A stretch of DNA of 64,000 nucleotides from Coffea arabica (Eukaryota; Streptophyta; Magnoliopsida; Gentianales; Rubiaceae), in the NCBI RefSeq assembly GCF_036785885.1, contig NC_092323.1, positions 10,300,501 to 10,364,500 of the forward strand. The letters run 5' to 3'. The notes under the pieces were generated by a model. The model had not been told where the DNA came from. It searched no databases and worked only from the letters and a program-made list of their open reading frames with translations. Made by a program: the position numbers and the translations under genes. Of this stretch, positions 45,626 to 64,000 are shown in pieces. How positions within the stretch are numbered: position 1 is the first letter of the stretch; each line of letters starts with the position of its first letter.

Positions 45626-48600
45626 TTACTGCATACTGCATTTGAAGTACTTGATAAAACATTCTTCTTCTTTGCAATACATGCTCATCACTCTGTATAC
45701 TTCAATCAATAGTTTAGGAAATCGACTAGCAAAATACTCGTCATAACCTTCTGGTACTGACCCCAAAATCTCCTGCAAAGAACATCAAGGTTATTATCAA
45801 ATTCACCATAAAGAGAAAATGCAAGTCAGAACAAGGAAAAAATAACACTTCAGGTGTCAATTAACTTAAAGCAAAAACATCTTTGGCATGTTATATGTAT
45901 AAATTTCACTTTGTATGTTTAACTAGCTCCATCAATGACTACCACATAGATGCAGATTTAGATCACTCTTCAACGGATGATTTTTGGGTGTTTTTTAAAT
46001 TTAAAATTTTATTGGGGTACTAGAGGAACCACACAGGTCAGCTAAAACATTTGTAATTGCATCATTATTCTCGAAAGTAGTATTTGCACAATGCATTATC
46101 ATCTTTGTGTGCAATCATCCGGGTGAATACAATCAAACATTGTATCTGCCAAGGATGCGAACAAGATATTGTTATAATAGCCACCCAATCATAGATGCAA
46201 TATCCAAATAATGATGTACAGGATGACATCTGTACTACTAGGAAACTTTGCATACTCATGGGATATGCAATGTTGTACCTCCTATCTTACACATTTTAAA
46301 CAAAGTCCAGCTCATCAGTCTACCTACTTTAAATTCTGTGATCAAATAACACTTTTTTACCAAAGGTGCTGATGGTAGAAAAGAACTTCCAGCAGAATAT
46401 AATTAATAAAAATTAACTAAAAAATTCCTAGCAAAGTTAAAATGTAAAAGCACCTGAATTTCCATGGGGAGCTCTCTATAATGATTCAACTTGTTACGCA
46501 TGACCCGCAGTAAGTCACGAACACTGTCATACTTATACCGCCTGTAGCAGCCAATATTATATAAGAATGCAGGTTCCAATTTTTCATCCCATTTTCCACC
46601 CAGAGCTATTGGTGCAGTAGCTTCTATTGCTTTTAATAGCTCAGAATCGGTTTCCCTATCTTCCAGTTCTACCCTATCACTTGTATCACGAAGAAATGAC
46701 AATCGCAGGTCAGCACTCCAAAACAATGGATGTGCTAGAACCTCTACTGCTTTTGGTCTGAATACAAGAAGAAAACAAGAGAGAAAGAAATAATTCAGCA
46801 ACCGAAATGTTAGGATAGTATCTAAAAAAAGTTCCAAAAATTGGATAAAATAGATTTCCTACAAATCGCAGAGTCAGTGGCCAACTCAACCAAAATCACT
46901 GAATCACTATGTAAATAAATTGTCTTTTTTCCAGCTGTCTTGCCCTACAATGCCTCTATTCCATACTTAGAATACTTCAAAATAATTGTTCATGAGTTTG
47001 AAACAAAGCATAGATTTCCAATTTGATTAGAAAGCAAGTTTTCCTACAATTCTATAGACTATCATAGACAACTGGTTAAACATAATCCTAAGCATGAATC
47101 TAGGACCAATCCTTAACAACTGGAAAGGTTGACCGGACTCAATTACCAGCTTGCAAGGTTACATTTCCTCAAGTGGAACAAGCTCCAGTGAAGAACAATA
47201 TAAACTTTATTTCCTCTTCCAGTTTTCATTTCCATAAAATCAATTTATATCCTTTCATATCTTAAATCAACAATATATTTTAAAACTAGGAAGAATGATA
47301 TTGTTTCATTTTACTTAGACATCCTTCCTGTGAGGACCCACTCCAGTTGGCAAACTAAACTTCATTCTACCGAGGAAAAAACAATTCAGTAAGGCCTTGC
47401 AGCAGCAATGTCCCTTACCTCATTTCTGCGTTAGGATTTAACAGATGGGAGAATAAATCCATTGCTTCAGGAATATGTTCGACCAAGAATAGGTCAACTT
47501 GGTTCTTTGTGATGTTGACATCACGTTCAAGACGATTTCCAAATGGATGTCTACCACCGGTGATGCAGAAAAATAGAACACAACCTAGACTAAATAAATC
47601 AACTGCTCTTGTTTGACGTCCAAGAAGAAGTTGTTCGGGTGCTTGCCATCCTGAACTTCCACAACCTGTAACAAGATATTAATTACATGAGCAAATAAAT
47701 GCACAGATAATATACTTGAAGCAATGAAATTTAAGGATAGCCACATTAATTCACAATGACAGCCTTGTTGTGAATCACTTACACCAAAGAAAAATCTAAA
47801 GAACCAACATCACATGCTGATCTATAGAGCCTCAATCCACAAGTTGTCCAGAATAAGATTAGCAGTCAAGATAACCGGTCGAAGGTGTGATTGCATGCAA
47901 ATTTACATCATAATAGGTAAGGTGCAACTACTTGCCTGTAGCATGCTGACCCAAGGAAGCCATATCCCCAGTGAGACGTTTGCTAATACCCATATCTGAG
48001 AGCTTTGCGCATAAAGATCTATCCTTGATTATCAAAACATTTTGGGGCTTCAAATCTCTATGAATGATTCCTAATTCATGTAGATGTACAAGTCCAGAAA
48101 CCACATCCCTGTCTTCCGGATTATTTTAGAAAAAGAGCAAAAAAAAAAAAGAAACAAAAATATATGAAAATAAAGAAAAATATAAACTAAAGCTCCAAAA
48201 AGTTGCCAGTAAGAAAAGATACACATAGAAGTGCATTGACATATTATATAACACCTAAGAAGAGTCAAATAATTAAAGATGTCAATTGCCGAGCCTTTTT
48301 CAACTACAAAAGCCTTATTCTCTTTCTCTTGAAAAGAAAGCAAAAAGACGAGAGAAAACTCATCACAGAGCATATTTGAACTGTTTTCTGTACACATCAC
48401 TTGTGCCATTAGCTCGTTAAAACTGATTCAATAGAAATGGAAGACTGCTGTATTGACTATAAATGGCATGCACATCAAAAATGAAAGTGGAAAATGGTCA
48501 AAGTTGTGGAATTGACTCATCAAGTATAGTCCAAACAGTTGGCACAATTATGTGGATTCCTACTTCCTAGCATGAGATTGTAGTAGTTGCAGACTAAATT

Positions 48601-51600
48601 CCTTAAGTATCTTTTAAACATTTTTACTGACCTCAATAATTTTAGCAAAATAGGAGAAGGGTAGCCATTTGACTTCCACAACTTGGGATCCTGTATAACA
48701 ACCTTCACAGAGTCCAAATGGATTCTGTACTTAGCCATATCCTCGACATCCAAGTTCTTGCTAAAAGCAAGATTTTCGGAAATGTCTGAGAACATGTGAA
48801 TAAGATCATCCAAGCTGCAAATACAACGCTCCAGTGCTAGATACACAAAATCTTGGTCTTGTTCCACTCCGTACCACCGCACTATGTTTGGATGCCTATC
48901 TGATGCAATAAGATTCTGAATCTCTTTAAAGGCAATATCATGATGAGCCCTGACAAGGCGTTTCACAGCAACTGGACGACCTTCATAAATGCCCTCAAGG
49001 ACAACAGTACCATTGCTCCCTTTTGCAATCTCTTTAGTGGTCACAAATAATTTGCCAATTCTACGTCCCTCTATATTAAAAGTTGGCTGAGAGAGGTTCA
49101 ACCACATATTCTTATCATCATCATCATGCATATTCGCACTATCTCCATTCGGATGCGTGTCTATGTCCTTTTTCTCTGCACTGCTACCACTCTTTCCAGA
49201 TTTTCTACTCTTCTTCCTCTTTGAGGGTACAGTTCCTGAACTTGTGTTGCTGGGATTGTCAACCAACATGAATTTTCTTGCAACTAGATGATAAATCACA
49301 ATTCCAACAGTAACAGCAAAAGGAAATGAAGAAATTGCACCAATCCTTTCTAAGACCACACTTAATCGACCACCAGGAGAAATTTTTAGTTCTTGCACAT
49401 TCGGCATCTCACCATCTTCTGTCGCTGAAGGCAAAGAAAGTACAAATTCTTCACCACTGATGTCATGAGAATCTAAAGATTTGCCAACATTTTGTTGTGA
49501 TGGAAGAAACTCTAGAACTTTGTCAACATTTGGTTGTGAAGGTAGCATAGGTTTTGGTATTGATGTTGGGAGCATTATTTCTGGAGAATGAGCCTCAGGA
49601 AGCCCACCACGTCTAAGGAAGGGTTCCAACATGTCATGATTGCGGAAGCGGTATACAAGAGCCCTAGATTGACATGGCAATGGCATGTTAAACCCGGGTT
49701 CAGAAAATCCTGAATTCAGGATAGCTCTGCCAAATGACCTCTCCATTTCTTCACAAAGAAAAGCAGCACCGATTTCAGCCACTGTCATATTCCACAGAAC
49801 TTTGTTTGAGTTTGGAGCAAAAGATGTCAATGCATAATCTGTTCTAGTGATGTAAAGGGGGAGCTCATCAGCCTTAAGGTCTGTAGATTGAGAAAGTCCA
49901 AGTCCTTCAACAGTGCTGTTATGAATAACGGTATTCTCACTGTTGTTCTGCTTTGGGCATGAAGACTCAGGAGTCCTATACGTGTAGATTAGCCTTCCAG
50001 TCTTGGCATCAACAAGAAATGCGGTGGTTTTTTTGGAACCAAGTACAATACCACCATCCTCAGCTATCTGAGGTGTTGAACTGATGTACTCCTCAAGAGT
50101 CTTTGTGAGTTTCTGGAAAGCACAAGTCAAGACTTATAAAACAACTACAATAAAGGTAGATGATTATAGAGAAATACATAGAAAAAATGAGCAGATGTAA
50201 TACCAGAGGATTGGTATCAACACTACTTCCGAAGGACAGCATTGAGCAATGACCGACACACTAGGACTAAGGAATTAAGTGTTCTCATGGAGAGAACCAA
50301 GCCTATACTAAGAACCAGATGCCACTCACATGGATACCTCAGAATCAGACAGTATGAGAGCAGAATCACTCAGACAGCTCTACAGAGGCGACCAGTTTGG
50401 CAAACACTCACAAAACCTGATTTTAGAGAAATTAATCTTTGAGAATAGATTGGAAACCTTACAAATAGGAAGTACCTGTGAACCACTATAAACAAAATCT
50501 TAAGGCATCAAATTTGTGTATACAGTAGTGTAGTGTAAAGAATGTTTTTGACCCAAACTATTAAACTATGTATTCTGAACAGAAGAGGCATGTACGAAAT
50601 CAATCACATTGGCAGACAAAACATGTGATGAGACTATCTTAGCGGATGCCTGAGGCATACTAGCCAAACAAACTGCTTACAGACCCTGTCATCAAATGTT
50701 ATATAGGCTCTAAGAAATGCTAACTCCTCGACAGTAAGATTTAGAGATATATTATTCAAAATCTGCGACCTCCACATGTGCTCACCATATTTAGTATTCA
50801 CACAAAAGCAGTAATTTAAAGCAGAGTGCAGAGATACTTCATTTTAGAGAAAGTGCTATAATTGAATGTACACAGAATATCAGACTCAACATCATATCCA
50901 TCAAAGTCTTCGAAACAAAATCTTAGAAATGTGATAGTAACAGCATACCAGTTTTCCAAGCCTGTTATGAGCATATAATTCCCAGTCATCCCCCAAATCA
51001 ATGTAGTAATCGCTTCCTAATCCAGATGTATTTTCTTTATCCTCATCCACTGGAGCCTGATATGATGAATAAATTTCAGATCCTGATTCAAATGACCAGA
51101 GTGGTTTCATAGAATCAAGCTCCAACAGAAAAATTGTCCCATCCAGAGCAGCGACTAGTGCAGTATCAGCTTCCCTGATTTAATCAAAGATGAAATCCAC
51201 ATGAATTCTATGGTTCACAGTGAGAGAAGACTTTCATTCAATCAGCACAGCACAAAATCAGATTTTGCACATAAACCTTCTCCATATTCTCCAGAATGTA
51301 AAGAATATCTTCTCATCAGCCTTAACCCAATCAACTAAGGCAATAGTACGCAACTAACAAAGAATCAGAAGGGGTATAAGCAATTATGCAATGCATTCTG
51401 AAAAGACACATTCTTGCAGTAAACTTAGCTCAATAAAGAGAGAGGGGGGGGGGGGAATCCAAAATTTTTTATCTTTAATCATCAGGTTCTTTCAGCTGAA
51501 ATTCAAGCGTTATTCCAAAACCCCAAATTTTTTTAACTTTCTGGCAGAAAATATAACGGTCCTGCCACCAATTCAAGTCCACTCTTTTTTTTTAATGGGA

Positions 51601-52289: not shown

Positions 52290-54340
52290 CTTAAGACTGA
52301 TGTAGTCAAACTTTTGATCGTGGGTTGTCGTCGATTAGTAGGACTTGAATCGTTTTGATTGGTTGCATTCAAATCACGCATTTGAACTTTCAATTGGATA
52401 ATATTTTCCTTTTTTCACTTTTCTTTTATTGCGGGACAATTTGCTGAAAAATACCCTTCACGTTTTCAAGTCTGTTAAACCTTACTGAATTATTTCAACA
52501 AAGAAAAAAAATAGAACTATATATAAAGTTCTTCCTCCGGATAAATAAAAAGTTGATATTTTTGAAGGAATTAAAAAGTGAACTTGATTCAATTTGGTGT
52601 TTCTAGTGAAAGAAAAAAAAAAACTACGTCCATATGTGTAAAGCTTTAGTAAGGTTTTGTATTCTTAACTCTATTGTCAACTAAGATTTCTTTTTCACAA
52701 TTGGCATCCTTCCTTCTTTTTTCTTTTTTTAACTCACTTCACATGTCACGAAACGAGATGCAATCTTTAAGTGAGGTGATAAGATTCCCAATGTTGAGGG
52801 TTATATATTTCTTACACTACAAAAAACAAAATAATGCACAAGATACTAGAGGTGTGCTGGCAAGCCAAACTACTTGGGAGTGATCAAACGCTATACTCGA
52901 CCTCGATTTGACAGAGTTTTAATTTGAGTTCGAGTTACTCCGTGCGTATAATGAATCGCGTCTCAATATTAGCATTTGGTACTTGAGTGCTCAGTAAGCC
53001 TAATTTAGCTATATTATTAAACAAAATAATGCACAAGATACTAGAGGTGTGTTGGCAAGCCAAACTACTTGGGAGTGATCAAACGCTATGCTCGAACTCG
53101 ATTTGATCGAGTTTTAATTTGAGTTCGAGTTATTCCGTGTGTATAATGAATCGCATCTCAATATCAGCATTTGGCACGCGAGTGCTCAGTAAGCCTAATT
53201 TAGCTATATTATTTATATAATATGTATATATATTAATCGTGAAATGACTATCATGGATTCATGTTTTAATAAAAATCTCGAGTCAAACTCCAATTTAATT
53301 ACGACTATCTCAAGTTGAGCTTGACTTTAATATTAAGTACTTGTTCGGGCTCAAACTCAAGATCGAGCAGCATCGATATTGATCGAAGCTAAACTTGAGT
53401 ATAGTGCTACTTGATTTCAACTTGACTCGATACTGCCCCTATGCGACACCATATATGCAATATTTGTGTTTAATCATGTCAAGTATAATTGCACTAATGC
53501 TCATCATCCATTGTGAATGATTTAGTGAAAGGTTGGTTTGAGTGTTAATATTAAAGGAATTATAAATAGGAGGTCTCAAATTCAAAATCTTCTATTTACA
53601 AAAAAATTTGTGAATGATTAGTTTTATATACAACAAAACATTTTCTTGGTAAAAAAAAATTTAGATTTCGACTTTGATCACCACGATTGATCAAAGGCAT
53701 GACTCATAGTATAAATTACCACCATGGATCAAGACATATCTTACAGTCATAAGTTGCTTACCGATTACTCATCAACAAAAACAAATTACTCATAAAGTAG
53801 TTGGTAACCAAAAGAGATTTAAGATTCTTCATGGATGTAAGTTAATAGATCAAATCCCTTGACCTGATTCTAAATCCATGATTTTTTGGAATAATTTCAC
53901 AGGTGGTTCAGTTTCCAAATTCCCCCTTGACTCATTTGAATCCTCTCTCCCAGTAAACTTGGATTTTTTGGAGTAAGCGTCCAACGAAAAAAAAAAAAGA
54001 TTACTCACCAACATAAGACTTTAAGAAAAAACACTTATTAAAATCAGAACTATGACTCTTAGCCCAAGACGATATGGGCTTGCTTTGAAAATATTAATAC
54101 GTTTCCAACAGAGTTTCATACGTTAACCCAATTGGATTTGCCTCCATCCATCCCAACTTTAATCTGGGCTATCGCCCAAGCCCCCTGTAAGGCTAAAACA
54201 GTGCCTGTTGCATGCTTCGTTGCCATCCCGCTCCATAAAATTTTTAACGGCAAAAATTTATAAAATATTCCGTCCGTCGAGATCAACCGGCACAGCTGCA
54301 GCTTGTGGGCAAGCCCTGCAAAAACCCCCCAAAAAACCTC
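52290..54340. other. Divergent spacer between IRE1 and RRP44A
   Basis: The about 2-kb interval between the two divergently transcribed genes holds both promoters. It contains a 195-bp tandem duplication (52824-53213) and a following GAGTT/CTCGA-rich repeat to about 53430. The remainder is AT-rich. No gene is seen. Confidence 0.6.
52824..53213. repeat. 195-bp tandem duplication
   Basis: Two adjacent copies, 52824-53018 and 53019-53213, both start AAACAAAATAATGCACAAGA and end TTTAGCTATATTATT. They differ by only a few substitutions, for example GTGTGCTGG versus GTGTGTTGG and ACTCCGTGCG versus ATTCCGTGTG. Each includes a GAGTTCGAGTT motif related to the repeat near 2.3-2.6 kb. Confidence 0.95.
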
Positions 54341-54372: not shown

Positions 54373-57300
54373 ATGCTTAAGAGCAAGACCTTTGTCCGAA
54401 AAACTAGACAAGGAGCAATTCGCAAGGTCTGTCTCTTAATCTCCTTCCCTTGAATCTTCAATTTTATATGTCTTTCGAAATTATTTGTTTCTCAATCTTA
54501 GGATTCTTCTATTTTAGCTGCTGAGGTCGTAAATGTCAAGGAAACGCGAAAAAAAAACTAGGGTTTTTGCTTGTGAGCTTGAATTTATATTTTTAGTTTG
54601 AATAAAAATTACACTTGCAGGAAGTCAGGGAGCACTATCTGAGAGATGATATATATTGCGGCGCGCCATTTTGCAAAGTATGTGACGTTTCCGGTGCTCG
54701 CTTGAGTGACTCTGCCTCCACACTTCTCATTCTCGACACCAATGTTGTACTTAATCAAGTAAATCGTAACCTGTTTTTATATTTGTTATGTATACTTAAA
54801 AAGAGATTGCGTAGTATACTACAGTTATTTCTGTTGTTGATTTTTTTTCTTGTTGTTGATGGTTGTTGTAACATTAGATTGATTTGTTGGAGAATCCAGC
54901 GATTGATGATGTGGTTGTGCTGTCGGTGGTGTTACAAGAGGTTAAGAATAAGAATATTGGTATATATAATCGCCTTAGGGCTCTCTGCAGTAACTCTTCC
55001 AGGAAATTCTTTGTTTTCTCCAATGAACACCACAGGTATTTATTTATTTGTGTACGTAAAGTGCAGAAGATACATAAGCCCCAATGTGTATTCAAATTAT
55101 GTTTATTAGTATCCATCTGACTATAATAGTTTGCACTACAGTTGGTAGGCTCTAGGCTTCCCTTACGCATAGATATTTTCACATGTAACTTTAGGAATTT
55201 GTTTAAATGTCCGAGTTTTGTTGATTCACCAACTGACAGATTGCTGCCTTCGAAAGTTCGATGATTTTAGATCCCTCAAATGACTTCTTAATGTAATCAG
55301 CTTTTATATCATAAACATATTAGTTCGGTTTCATCTATGGTGCTGTGAATCTAGTTTTGAGAATAGTCAATGATAAGTTCTGAAGTTGCAGCATTGACAA
55401 TGTCCTTTGTCACGTAGATAGTGTATTTCTTTTACATGGTTTTAATTCATGTTTTCTCTTTTTGATTGCAAAGGGATACATATGTGAAAGAGATGGCTGG
55501 TGAAACTCCAAATGATCGGAATGACAGAGGTTTGTTGTTTTGCATTACACAAACAGAAAACATGTGTGCTTTATCATGTTATCAGGGTTGCAAGATTCAG
55601 TCAGCTGTGCATTGGGTATTGGGATTTGCATGCCTATGAATGTTGAGTGTCAAATACTACAACTTTTCTTCCTTCTAAATGGTTCACAAATTACTTCTTG
55701 TTATTTGAATTGGATGCTAGACCACTTGTTATAGTTTTTAATGGACATAAAGGGTTTAACAGTGCTTACCTGATTACGGAAGATGCTATATTTGTGAAAT
55801 TTCTGCACATGCATGTTACCACGGTTGTCTTCAAGCGAGATTCTGGTGACATCACACTTCAGAATGCAGCTGCTCCAAATTATAAAAGAAATACTCTAGT
55901 CTCTCCTGTGATTATTAAAATGCGGAAGTAGTGAAAAAGATGATAGTTGCATGTATGTTCTTTAATTGATGTGTCTGCATTTGATCTCATTTCCTAGTTC
56001 ATAAAAAATTATATTGGAAGTTTCCAGTTTCTTTTGCAGTGTTTTTTCTTGACCTTTTAAGGTTATTAAACACTTAAAACTTTGAAAGATGCCCAAAGTT
56101 CTTTTGGTCACATTAATACGAGATTCTTATTTCTTTATTAGTATCAGCATATGGGATGTTAGTTTTCTAGCATTCTCAATTTTTAATTTGGTCAAAACCT
56201 CCGTGACTAATTAGTCAAATGGGAATGAGCACTTGCCTAATCTTTCAGACCGAATTAGTTTTAGATGCTTCACTGTTCATTTAGCACCTCATGTTGATAT
56301 CATTGGGAGGTGTTACCAGGAATTTTCTTGTCTTTTTCTTTTTTCCCTCCTCCTATACACGCGAACAATTTTACTGGCACTACATAGAAATTTTTTTGTA
56401 TTGTCTTGAAGTCTAATACTAGGATGTACCACCGACATGTTTGTAATACTCTATCAGTTATGGTAGCTGTACAGACATGAAAGCATACAACTGTCAATAT
56501 AAGATGTTAAAAAACATTTGGTGCTCAAGTAGAGATGACTTATTTCAAGACCATGTATGGGTGTCCTAATAATTTGACTCTAATATTAAACTTCAGCAAT
56601 CCGAGTTGCAACACATTGGTATCAGAGTCACCTCGGTAATGTTGTTCGTATCTTACTACTCACAAATGACCGGGAGAATAAAAGGAAAGCATTGGAGGAG
56701 GGAATTTTGGCAGATACAGGTATAGCATAATCTCGTCATCATCTTTGTCCTTGTCTTCATTGCCACTTTATTGATGGTCATTGATACTAAAAGTGTTGAT
56801 GTAGCTGTTCTTTAGCTACTGCTGAGCCATCATTTTATGTATAGTACTTCATTCTCAATGTCAATTTATCATACTGGACATCCTGTGGCCCAATATTTGA
56901 TTAATAATGTCTAGCTGCTTTTCAGTTGAATCATACGTGAAGACACTTGGCCAGCCAGAGTTGCTAGACCTGATTGTTCAGCCTTCATCTGAGGATGTTA
57001 ACATGGAAGATGTGGAGGATCTGAGACCTTCAAAGAGAAAAGTCATCTACACTGAGGTATACTTTGAATATCTTGTTTACTTGTACTCTGATAAACAATC
57101 TTCTGTCTATTACTGCATTTACTTGTTATTTAATTATTGTGCAGCACAAGCCCATGTCAGAGATTACTTCTGGCTTGCTTCGAGGGATATATCATCAAGG
57201 AAAACTTCGTGTTAACCGTTACAATCCATTTGAAGCGTACGTTGGAAGTGAAAGCATTGGTGATGAAATAATTATCTATGGGCGTGCAAATATGAATCGA

Positions 57301-60300
57301 GCTTTTGATGGGGATGTTGTGGCTGTGGAACTTTTGCCTCAAGATCAATGGCAAGAGGAGGCATCCATAGCAATAACTAATGAAGGTTTTTACTTGTTCT
57401 CTTTTCTTTGAGGGCGTTATCTGGTTATTGATGACACAAACTACAAAAGTAGTGCTTTGGTGTTGAAAAACTAGTCCAAAACTTTCTTACAAGTCAAACA
57501 AAAAGGAAAGAAAATTTTCCTTTGCTTTCCTTTTATTTTGATGTTATCCGAACACTGTCTAGAGGGAAGCAGAGGAGCAAATTCTTTGTTCATTCACTTA
57601 TCATTGGATTTTGGAGGTAAGGTGGTTAAGATGAGTGTAGTATCTTGATACAGGATGAAGGCAGTTACTTTTCTTACCAATAAGTTAAGGATTTGTTCTT
57701 CATTACCTCCAGGGACACTATTGACTAAGCTTATAAGTTGAAGATCCCCACATACATGCATGATAAGTACTCCTTTACTATTTGTTTTATCTGACATCCA
57801 ATTAGTTGCGCAAATACTCTTCTTGTGGATGGAAGAAGTATGTGGATGTAAATATGCTTAATGATACGAATAAAAATAAATCTGTTGCCCCTGCACCGCT
57901 TCTTGGTCCTGAGCACTAAGTGATTCTTTAAGTTTAAATTGTTTGCCAGAATACTAGAAACTTTTTGACTTTGAAGCTGTTGAGGAGTATCATCCAGATA
58001 CGTGGGCGAAAGTACATGGACGAAACCAATACGAATAACTCTGTTGCCCTTGCTCCGCTTCCGTGTCCTGAGCACTAAGTGATTCTTTAGGTCTGAATTG
58101 TTTGCCAGAATACATGAAATTGTTTGGCTTCGAAGCTGCTGAAAATTATGATCTAAATGGAAGAAGCACTTCTCTTTGGAAGGATTAGTATGTTATAGAT
58201 ATTTGGCATTTCTTAATATCAAGTATACAGGCAGTTTTGTATCTATATTTATGCTGTTGTTCCAACCAACTTTGTTCAGTGGGATCCAAATTCCTTCCTA
58301 CTCTGTCATTATTCTAGCTAGTTCTACATTTAGTTTACAATCAACTTAACATATCCTTTGTTTCTTTATCTGCTTCATTTGATTCATCCATCCCTGTCTG
58401 TGTGGTTCTCACCCTTTTCCTCGCATTGTTTTTCAATGATGTCCTCTGCGAGAAAGGAGAAACCTGTGTATGTGTGTGGGAATTTGTGTTGAAGCTATGT
58501 GTTTAGTTAATTTTTTTTTGCAGAGGATGATGAGGAAGACGTTCATCTACCCCCAAGTAGTTCCGATGATGCTCCTAGAGCCACAAATCTTGTGCAAGGA
58601 TCAGCTGGGGTCTCAGGTTCTGTGCCATCCCGTCCTTGTGGACGTGTTGTTGGTATTATAAAACGGAACTGGCATTCGTAAGTTAAATACGTTTGTTATT
58701 GAATGCTAATTACCTGCATGATGTTATTTTTCGTTAAATTTGGTTGGCACTCATTGTTTCACTCCCCTCTTACCTCTTATCTATATATGATTTACTAAAT
58801 TACTATCTTGATGGGTTTTACTTTCAATTTCAAAAGAGAGTCTTCTTAAAGTATTAGACTCCTTGCATTGCAAGTCTCTAGATACTGTTCAATTTTAAAG
58901 TACTTACAGAAAACTCGTACAGATGAAAATGTTGTGTGGGTTTTTGCCAACTACCTTAATGTATTGCTCTTCTCTCATTGGGCTTTTGGTCTGCAAATTA
59001 CTGTTCGTAGTGATTGGAGATTCATTCATTTGAACTACTGCTTAGGATAGTACAGTCTTAAAGTTGCAAACAACTTTATTATATACAATACGGATTCTAT
59101 AGTGGTCTGGCAGGCATAACACTATTTCCTAGGGATTGCAATGGAGTGTAGGAATATCACCAATTTTACACTCATTTCAACCATAAATTCCTTGCATATT
59201 GCATCTCAACCATCAGCTTGATATGCTTAGCTTTTTGCAGAATTGATTTACACCATAAGAAGAAAATCTTCATGCTCTAATTCGAAGGCTAAACAAATCT
59301 TATTCAGAAATCGATTATCTGCAGATATTGTGGTTCGGTGGAGCCAATGCCTATGCCAGCAGGCAGTGGTGGTGTTGCCCATGCTTTATTTGTATCTAAA
59401 GACCGTAGAATTCCTAAAATCCGTGTACAAACGCGTCAGCTGGGGAACCTTTTGGACAAGAGGATCGTTGTTGCTGTTGATAAATGGGATATTTTGTCTC
59501 GATACCCATCTGGTCATTATGTGAGGACAATAGGAGTAATAGGGGACAGAGATACTGAAAGTGAGGTACGTGGCTATGTCATTGTTACACTTACAGTTCT
59601 GAAACAGAGTTTTGCATTAGCTCTGTATCTTCATGGTGTTTGTTTTCCATCTATTGTAGTTATACATGATTTTTCTCCTTTATACTTGTCATACTGAACT
59701 TTCTAGTCATCTGTGTTCTTTATATGAGCTTGAGATGCTTAAGCCAAAACAGCTGGGTATAACATATTGATTCATCACAATTTATGTGTAACAACTATAT
59801 TCTCTTATCATGTGTTTCAGGTTGTGCTGTTAGAGAATGATGTAGAATTCAAACCATTTTCCTCTCAAGTTTTAGCATGCTTGCCAGCGTTGCCTTGGTC
59901 TGCGTCTAGTGAAGATCTTGCCAATCCTATCAGGCAGGATTTGCGACAACTCCGTGTATTTAGTGTGGACCCTCCAGGTATGTAGTTCCATTTATATTTC
60001 TGAAATTTTTCTTCAATTTCTGTTTTATTATTTCTTTTTTTTTTTTTCTAGTTGTTCATTAACACCTTTCTTATGCTTATCATGGTGCATTAGGATAGCT
60101 TTGTTGTGTATTTCTAGTTTTAGCTGACATTCTTATTTTCATCTGGTGCAGGATGCAAGGATATTGATGATGCATTGCACTGTACAGCTCTTCCTGATGG
60201 AAATTTTGAAGTGGGAGTTCATATCCTTTGAGTTACATTTGTCCTTTTCCTGTGTCACCTTACATTACTCGTTACTGACTTTTCCCTAGTCTTCCCTGGA

Positions 60301-63300
60301 TGGTAAGTCGGGTTTTGTTGGGGGCGGGGCGCCGGGGGGGGGGAGGAGCAGGGGGTGATGTTTTAGGTGTGTTGGATTCTGCAAAAGAAATAATGAGCTA
60401 CCATGAGTAGTGCTCGTGTCAATTTTATTCTTTAACAACATATCAAATATTGCTGATGTCACAAACTTTGTTCACTCTGGAACACCACTTGATGATGAGG
60501 CTGCAAAAAGGGGTACCTCAGTCTACCTTGTTGAGCGCCGAATTGACATGCTCCCTAAACCCCTAACAGAAGGTGATACTTGCTTTGCATTTGAAAAAAA
60601 AAATGCACCATAGATTTATGAAGATTTTGCTGATTTTCGTCTATGCAATAGACAGTATAAGTTTTTGTTGATTTTGCAGATATATGTTCACTCCGAGCTG
60701 ATGTTGAGAGATTAGCCTTCTCTGTGATTTGGGTAAATTGTTCCTCTGTACATGATCAAATTTCTGCTATCCTTTTTCCTGATTTTCCAGTCGAAAAATT
60801 TTCTGGAATCCCCACTTTGGCAAGTGGCATGAAAGTGCAAACGTGGTACTATATAGAGTTTATCCACCTGTTGTACTTAACATGGTAATACTCCCAGTAT
60901 GCTGTATCTTGACATTGACCACTTATGATGGGATTTAGTTGTTTTAAGTGTTTGCTCCGTGATTGTGGGCATTGTTTTATCAGATGTCATTTTTAAGCTA
61001 ATTTTTTCCTGAAGAAGTGGTTATAAGTCCAATTTCTTCCTGTGTTGTTTACTCAATCATACTAGCAGAAGCTTATGCTGTCACTCAGATATTGCCAGGT
61101 CAATGATACTAGGTCATGAACAGACCCAGAAGAGGAGTATTTTAATAGCCACTTCAATTTCCATAACAGTTACATTCTTTTTTGGTTTTTGGAAGCAGTT
61201 ATTAATAAGCTACAGTTTCATTTTGGCAAGCAATAGCAAAGATTTTACAGTCAAAATGTGCAATTTAATGAGTTGTCATGGTTCTCAGTTTGTTGAATTT
61301 ATCTTGTCTAGTAAATAAATACGTGTCACTACACTGTCTACAGGGACTTTTTTCTTTAACACATCATATAACATGTTAAACACTTCTCCCTTTCAGGAAA
61401 TGACTCCTCAAGCAGAGATTATTTCCACGAAGTACACAAAAAGTGCAATAAAATCATGTGCAGCTTTGTCATACGTTGAAGCTCAAGCAAGGATGGATGA
61501 CAGGTGCTCCTATATTTTACTTCTATTGCAAATTGTTTTCTTGAACTTAAGGACAGACCTATCTCTGAAAGTACCATATTACTAGTTTGTTTCAGCATTA
61601 TTGTGATATTTGCTTTGAATCATAAATGATGTTTTTCAAGGAAAAATTGGACTATGTTGCTTGAATAATGAGCTGTGATGTTTATATAACATGTTGGATA
61701 TTGGGGTTATTGTTTATGTTACTTATTGTACTATTACCTTTCTTAACTAACCTCCTCTTTAATATCACAAATATTTTTTATTCTTTATCTGCAGTCGACT
61801 GGTGGATCCATTAACTACTGATTTGCGAAATATGAATGCTTTAGCGAAGGTATTGGCACTAGTCGTTTCATTCATTTTCCTCATCCCCACATTTGGGTAT
61901 GTGCGTTTATTATTGTGGACTACATCTTGAATTTTGCAGATCATGAGGCAGAGACGTATTGATAGAGGGGCGCTTACTCTTGCTTCTGCTGAAGTCAAAT
62001 TTCAAATTGATACTGAAACTCATGATCCCCTTGATATTGGTATGTCCATGCTCTTGTATTTGTGTTTACAATCTATACCTTTAGAACCTGCAATTAAGAA
62101 GTGCTCTTGACCTCTTGACAAGCAGATAGCAATGTCTAGATTGGGCAGAAATTCATTTTAGTGTCCAAACTGCTGAAGTTAGTGTTGGACCAATGTTGCC
62201 AACACCTCTTCTATGATTCCTGTTTAGAAGTTTGCAAGGTTGAGCAAAGATTACTTAGTGTGGGTTTTATGTTTGGCTTGTTGACATTGCCATCTTGAGA
62301 TGTGACCTTGAAATTCAAATAAACTAGCATATAACATCTATTACCATCATCACACCATTATAGGACAAGAAAAGTAAAAGTTAATGATCACCCCTCCCCC
62401 AATCACCATTTTTGACTTGTTTGCTGTAATCTTGTATAAGAGATAGTAGATGTTCATAAATGTTTTACTGGACGTGGTCATTTACTTGTCATTGGCTTAT
62501 GAATATTCACTATCCTGTTGTTCGGCCAGAATCATAGTTATATTTTGCATTAACCTTGTTTTAGGAATGTATCAAATAAGAGAAGCAAATCAAATGGTTG
62601 AGGAGTTTATGCTTGCAGCTAATGTTTCAGTTGCTGAAAAAATTCTCAAACATTTTCCCCTGTGCTCATTACTGAGGTACAGTATATATTCTTTTTAGTT
62701 GTTCTTTGTTGCAAATTCTAACACTGACAGAATTACTTTTTGTAATACTACTGTCTTTTACTTACCTTTTGGAATGAAATTGAGATTCATTTTCCATTAA
62801 TTTCAACAAAACATGCTTTGGTTACTCTCTCTCTCTCTCCCCCAAAAAAAAAGTGTGTATTATGGACAACTGGACTTTTAATTAAGCATGCTGATAAGAT
62901 GGATTTTCTGGGATGCAGCATTCTCAGAAATTGTAATATGGGTCGGCAACTGACTTACTGATTATTAAGAAATAAAAAGCTAATGGAATTGGATTAATTA
63001 ACCGGACAAACTGCTAATACTCAGGACAATATCCAATATTTTTGACTGACAGGAGAATAGTATGCTGATCTCAGTCTACCTTCTCATTAATCTCCCCTTC
63101 TTCTGGCTGCATTCTGTTAATTACCCTGCTGTCAGTCCAAGGGTGACATGCATCACTATGTCTTATTGTCGTGTTTGAGATCTATCTGTAGGTGTGGCTG
63201 TGCAGTTCTTTACTGTCTTGAGCAGTAAATTATCCCAATTATGCTTTCAGAAGGATTTCATTGGTGCATGTATTTTCCTTTTTATATAGTTAGTGAGATA

Positions 63301-64000
63301 GTGAAGTCTAAATACTAGTTGCTTAGGCTGTTCTGTTGATTTTCATATTATTAATCTATTGCAACTATAACATTTGCAGACGACATCCTACCCCTACAAA
63401 AGAGATGCTTGAACCTTTAATTCGAACAGCTTCAGCTGTTGGTCTCCAATTGGATGTGTCATCCTCAAAAGCACTTGCTGATTCGCTTGATAGTGCTGTG
63501 GTCAGAAAAGGATTGGATTTTTCTTACTTTTGTTTTTTGCAATTATAAATTTGTTTGCTTTCATGAATTCTTTGGCGCGTGGTTTCTGTTTGTCATTTTT
63601 TCCCCAACTTGCTACTACTTTAAAATGTGATGCATATGTTACATGAGCTTGTGCTTGTTTGAAGACACTGACTTTGACAATTAATTAATTTCCTTCTTTC
63701 TCTAGCATCATCTTTAATTTCTAGTGTAACATAATATCTGTAATTAAGTCCCTCTTGATTCAGAAGGAAGTAGTTCCAATGAAACTATTAGTGAAAGAAT
63801 GATGAAACAAGCTAGAAATACCTTTTGCATCTAAAATCCATGCACATCTTCACGTCTCTGGGTGGGTTTTGAACAGCCACATGGAGTCTGGCTGGCATCA
63901 ATATAGTTAGAAGGGTTTTAATGCATCTTAGATCCATGTGTTTAGGGGTACAACTTTGCATATAATTGGAGAATCTGCTTTTAAGTGAGTGATTCATCTC
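54373..64000 (+). CDS. RRP44A: RRP44A/DIS3 exosome exoribonuclease, 3' end outside window
   Basis: Eighteen exons are inferred: 54373-54426, 54621-54758, 54878-55035, 55474-55529, 56597-56719, 56926-57056, 57145-57385, 58524-58677, 59325-59565, 59821-59977, 60152-60220, 60447-60572, 60680-60732, 61397-61503, 61795-61849, 61940-62039, 62565-62676, 63380-63500; 732 aa, phases consistent. The C-terminal about 200 aa lie beyond the right edge. The protein is the catalytic subunit of the nuclear RNA exosome. It has a CR3 Cys motif (C31-x4-C36-x2-C39), a PIN domain with [11 protein letters not shown] (Asp57), cold-shock domains, and an RNB 3'-5' exonuclease domain with [12 protein letters not shown] (Asp488, 490, 491). 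All expected catalytic residues in the visible part are present. It matches Arabidopsis RRP44A (At2g17510) in layout. The junction 60220/60447 needs a non-GT-AG intron. Confidence 0.93.
57864..58170. repeat. 159-bp imperfect tandem duplication in an RRP44A intron
   Basis: Copy one starts near 57864 and copy two near 58029. Shared words include ATACGAATAA, CTGTTGCCC, GTCCTGAGCACTAAGTGATT and ATTGTTTGCCAGAATAC, spaced by 159 bp at the best-aligned GAGCACTAAG. The copies have diverged by substitutions and small indels. Confidence 0.85.
60221..60446 (+). other. Probable U12-type AT-AA intron in RRP44A
   Basis: The intron begins ATATCCTTT, the exact U12 5' splice-site consensus. Near its end is TTCTTTAAC (60428-60436), one base from the U12 branch-site consensus TTCCTTAAC. 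The branch A lies 11 bases before the junction, within the normal U12 distance. Removing 60221-60446 restores the RNase II family motif [11 protein letters not shown] without a gap. The 3' dinucleotide is then AA. The shared ATAT at both junctions makes the exact cut ambiguous, but only the AT-AA register places the U12 donor correctly. No GT-AG pair restores this motif. Confidence 0.8.
60320..60355 (+). repeat. G-rich tract inside the AT-AA intron
   Basis: Within 36 bases there are runs of five, four, ten and five G, including GGGGGCGGGGCGCCGGGG. It stands out in an AT-rich intron and meets the simple pattern for a G-quadruplex on the sense (RNA) strand. Confidence 0.8.

Follow-up and report, generated by a model that had tools for sequence, protein, structure and literature searches.

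Non-canonical termini occur in about 4% of the orthologous minor introns of plants, and almost 75% of these introns carry AT-AA ends, as given in passages of a report whose species were picked for many non-canonical minor introns and in which the share may run high (PMC10639083). Multiplying these figures, we obtain an AT-AA share of ~3% of orthologous plant minor introns, whereas another database puts "other" termini at 0 to 3.8% in four plants, according to passages of PMC7367187. AT-AA is accordingly a known minority type in plants, and as the commonest non-canonical minor terminus there (PMC10639083, in part) it is too frequent for AA ends to be called exceptional, as an earlier note on this DNA had done. 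For the human A-type (AT-AN) minor introns, with AT-AA among their termini, passages of PMC8280824 describe less efficient splicing, with retention or alternative splicing of 92% upon loss of CENATAC. A minor intron in an exosome gene is likewise on record, namely the U12 intron of EXOSC5 common to human and Arabidopsis, in passages of PMC2831892 that also quote the consensus ATATCCTT for the donor as well as TCCTTAAC. Moreover, transcripts that retain minor introns are broken down by the exosome, as stated in sections of two reviews (PMC8199999 and PMC6865273, the latter citing Niemela 2014), and RRP44A is essential in Arabidopsis, as noted in a passage of PMC3820695.

The intron described here, intron 11 of an RRP44A/DIS3 gene, appears to have the same termini as the plant AT-AA minor introns and to share with the A-type introns the AT start, the variable last base and the U12-type donor and branch site. 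That A-type set, which includes AT-AA, is human, whereas intron 11 comes from a plant. EXOSC5, a core exosome subunit, differs from RRP44A in not being the RNB subunit.

Gene model of RRP44A/DIS3

The window analysed is a stretch of 64,000 nucleotides (C14:10300501–10364500) from an assembly of 1.198 Gb in 131 contigs. Judged by its gene content and structure it is plant nuclear DNA, and the last 10 kb of the window are occupied by an RRP44A/DIS3 gene on the plus strand. The partial model of this gene comprises 18 exons (54373–63500), with a spliced product of 732 residues carrying the Pfam domains PIN_4, Rrp44_CSD1, OB_Dis3 and RNB; the union of PIN, CSD and RNB in one protein places it, on this partial model, within RRP44/DIS3. 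Open C-terminal coding segments, read by eye, continue beyond the window end in C14 within ~3 kb, up to a window coordinate of ~66.6 kb. A pseudogene was rejected, with no stop found in the 18 modelled exons of either the C14 copy or a second copy on C13.

GT-AG termini were found for 16 of the 17 introns in the partial model, the sole exception being intron 11 (60221–60446, plus strand; 226 nt, phase 1), for which the reading frame and the same ends in the second gene copy indicate AT-AA termini, and the donor and branch signals a U12-type assignment. It lies between exon 11 (60152–60220, 69 nt), carrying the Asp cluster and the first base of the His508 codon, and exon 12 (60447–60572, 126 nt), which opens with the last two bases of that codon. 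The last base of exon 10 together with exon 11 encodes 23 residues, followed by the first base of His508, and the exon 11 product aligns to the DIS3 chain of 6lqs (546–607). Intron 11 splits codon 508 (His) 17 residues after D488, D490 and D491, which we take to be the catalytic Asp residues, bearing out the placement just after the Asp cluster proposed before. The gene is AT-rich, but a G-rich tract (60306–60355; G or C at 39 of 50 positions) occupies the middle of this intron, and the two gene copies are set apart there by a 13-column gap. The intron also contains GTAAGT (60303–60308), a strong U2-type donor sequence that the C13 copy retains and that represents a possible cryptic or nested splice site.

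Elsewhere in the window, open frames on the minus strand (46403–50130) matched Ribonuc_2-5A (E 1.2e-27) and, below the Pfam cut-off, a protein kinase, and were assigned to an IRE1-type gene near RRP44A. A tandem duplication of 195 nt (52824–53213) showed two copies 94% alike. The Rfam scan of the window at the gathering score gave no match.

Conservation of the motif around His508

We compared the protein stretch interrupted by intron 11 with related sequences. The 22 PDB sequences listed (DIS3/RRP44, DIS3L2, DIS3L1, RNase R and SSD1) were of equal length over a 36-residue stretch, with no net insertion, and EVGVHIADVT was unbroken in the five plus three printed PDB alignments, mostly of DIS3 chains differing little from one another. 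VHI was kept by all 80 of the prokaryotic RNB loci compared, a set biased by NFEVGVHI having been one of six search patterns. These loci, the best 80 of 161 relatives from a scan of genome contigs, were all titled as bacteria and used for motif conservation only; a scan of viral contigs returned eight stretches, none of them a relative. Within the genome itself, the C20 copy of a paralogous RNB gene encodes RVGVHIADVSYFV inside a single open frame, with no intron at the VGVHIADV motif. This gene, present on C19 and C20, has a long open frame of 762 codons (744 from the first ATG in the C20 copy) and probably corresponds to RRP44B/SOV, a name we infer.

Placement of the intron 11 junction

Because of this protein motif, the reading frame at intron 11 is fixed. 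Enumerating all junctions with donors at 60160–60319, acceptors up to 60499 and introns longer than 30 nt, we found EVGVHIADVTNF to be exactly restored by six placements, all of them one-base slides of one junction, with the ends AT-AA, TA-AA, AT-AT, TC-TA, CC-AT and CT-TT. Only in the AT-AA slide does the intron begin with the U12-type donor ATATCCTTT. The AT-AT placement (60223–60448) leaves the protein unchanged while losing this donor, and is compatible with the sequence alone. By the reading frame and its identity in the C13 copy, the 3' splice site AA is placed at 60445–60446 on the plus strand, so that the AT and AA termini are supported by the frame and by two gene copies.

U12-type signals and their chance expectation

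Intron 11 was tested against the donor consensus ATATCCTT or GTATCCTT and the branch consensus TTCCTTAAC, which extends the quoted TCCTTAAC by a further T. Both signals were found on the plus strand, and both where the earlier note had placed them: the 5' splice site ATATCCTTT (60221–60229) matches ATATCCTT at 8/8 positions, and the branch site TTCTTTAAC (60428–60436) matches at 8/9, with the predicted branch A at 60435 (or 60434). The second A of TTCTTTAAC (60435) lies 11 nt from the intron end at 60446.

Based on window rates from both strands, real sites included, ATATCCTT would fall at one of six given positions by chance with a probability of ~3e-4, and a branch site of at least 8/9 would fall within a 13-position stretch with ~2e-3. 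Strung end to end, the introns of the gene itself offered an equally good branch site at ~1% of pseudo 3' ends (65 of 6872), again with the real site included. Counting both strands, the window has four occurrences of the 9-mer donor word ATATCCTTT; the word is not rare, and it is its position that is informative. Among the other 16 introns, the best donor match to either U12 consensus was 7/8 at 57057, in a GT-AG intron with a branch match of only 6/9, and the best branch match at 8–20 nt was 7/9 at 62040, with a donor match of 4/8. Intron 13 contains TTCTTTAAC too, but there the site stands 37 nt away from the intron end and the donor is GTAAATTG. The two signals thus occur together in intron 11 only, among the 17 introns. 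A scan of both strands of the window for U12-like pairs, with [AG]TATCCT as donor and a branch match of 8/9 or better 60–1500 nt away, yielded six pairings, three of which use the intron 11 donor.

Minor-spliceosome components in the genome

Searching the genome for minor-spliceosome genes, namely U12, U6atac and CCDC84/CENATAC, we found all three: the U12 snRNA gene at two places, on C3 and C4, U6atac with ten matches above the cut-off, some of which are perhaps pseudogenes, and a CCDC84/CENATAC homologue on C7 and C8. The stretch GTAAGGAA in the U12 snRNA of this same genome is predicted to pair with the branch site of intron 11 through seven Watson-Crick pairs and one G-U pair out of eight, with one A bulged.

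Comparison of the two gene copies

A 25-mer spanning the donor occurred exactly twice in the genome, on C14 and C13. The C13 copy aligns to that on C14 in two main pieces, one of 10,269 columns at 97.3% identity and the other of 3,001 columns at 96.4%. Donor, branch site and AA end are shared by the two copies, as are identical exons 11 and 12. The 18 exons show 21 differences in 2196 sites (0.96%), corresponding to 15 synonymous and six nonsynonymous codons and no stop, and the 17 introns 162 in 6926 aligned sites (2.3%). Intron 11 shows seven substitutions and 13 gap columns, mostly in the G-rich middle tract. Since the two copies are close relatives, the shared AA lends weak support to a long conservation of this end.

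Among the contig pairs C3/C4, C7/C8, C9/C10, C13/C14 and C19/C20, the RNB genes, CCDC84, U12 and some of the U6atac matches are each found on the two members of a pair, a pattern that suggests either phased haplotypes of a diploid or a recent duplication or polyploidy.

Alternative splice sites

Considering the junction together with the donor and branch signals, intron 11 of RRP44A is very probably a minor (U12-dependent) A-type (AT-AN) intron with AT-AA ends, and the alternatives were weighed against this reading. An AC acceptor was rejected, with AC ends at 60436 or 60439 shifting the frame and leading to a stop within seven codons. These same AC ends, each followed by an early stop, would be in keeping with a genuine AT-AA intron at which splicing also draws on AC or AG sites close by, or on a cryptic U2-type donor such as the GTAAGT word, so that part of the mRNA is unproductive; we consider such mixed splicing unlikely, since minor introns usually keep a larger distance than the 1 and 4 nt that separate these AC ends from the branch A.

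Splicing as a U2-type intron at an AG acceptor, the protein then carrying an insertion or deletion, would keep an open frame in four GT-AG and four GC-AG combinations. All eight, however, add or drop residues within the EVGVHIADVT core or next to it, against the equal length of the 22 PDB sequences listed, the unbroken motif in the printed alignments and VHI throughout the (pattern-biased) prokaryotic loci, which renders this explanation highly improbable. The AG at 60407 or 60410, named beforehand as a junction that would overturn the AT-AA assignment, does leave the frame open, but replaces His508 and adds a net 13 or 12 residues; as an insertion at an acceptor upstream of the branch site, it was rejected.

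The other such case, a sequencing or assembly error turning a canonical AT-AC intron into AA at its 3' end, we regard as the faintest of chances: a single base change would give the canonical end and the G-rich tract is of a kind potentially hard to sequence, but about 90 nt separate this tract from the 3' end, and the C13 copy argues against an error by keeping AA although it differs elsewhere in the intron.

Discussion

The AT-AA intron of RRP44A is, on the evidence presented here, a well-supported further member of a known plant type. Among the papers examined, we found none naming RRP44A intron 11, which may well be listed elsewhere, for instance in intron tables or databases. At2g17510 was absent among the literature matches listed for U12, DIS3 and minor intron, the U11-48K paper does not mention RRP44, and the main text of PMC10639083, as distinct from its tables, mentions neither "DIS3" nor "exosome".

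For an AT-AA intron 11, it is sound to infer that RRP44A would depend on the minor spliceosome. The U11/U12 di-snRNP would bind the donor and the branch site, U6atac would replace U11 at the donor, and the 3' cut would be made at AA, 11 nt from the branch A, and not at the AC ending 4 nt from it, presumably because AA is suitably spaced from the branch point. Upon retention of the intron, the first in-frame stop (TGA, 60229–60231, plus strand) directly follows GVHIL, closing the frame two residues past His508 and cutting the RNB domain short, in agreement with the truncation in mid-domain that the earlier note had foreseen for failed splicing. The retaining mRNA would probably be destroyed.

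Intron 11 may also be slow to splice, because human A-type minor introns, to which it is analogous, are spliced less efficiently. Since the exosome degrades unspliced minor-intron transcripts, a feedback loop is conceivable, formed by a slow minor intron in the catalytic subunit of the exosome, a hypothetical scheme to which we give little credence.

Intron 11 offers a clean test site for the choice of AA ends, and gene predictors restricted to GT-AG, GC-AG and AT-AC would misread the active site of RRP44A. As RRP44A is essential in Arabidopsis, a minor intron near the code for its active site would tie a core RNA-decay enzyme to the minor spliceosome.
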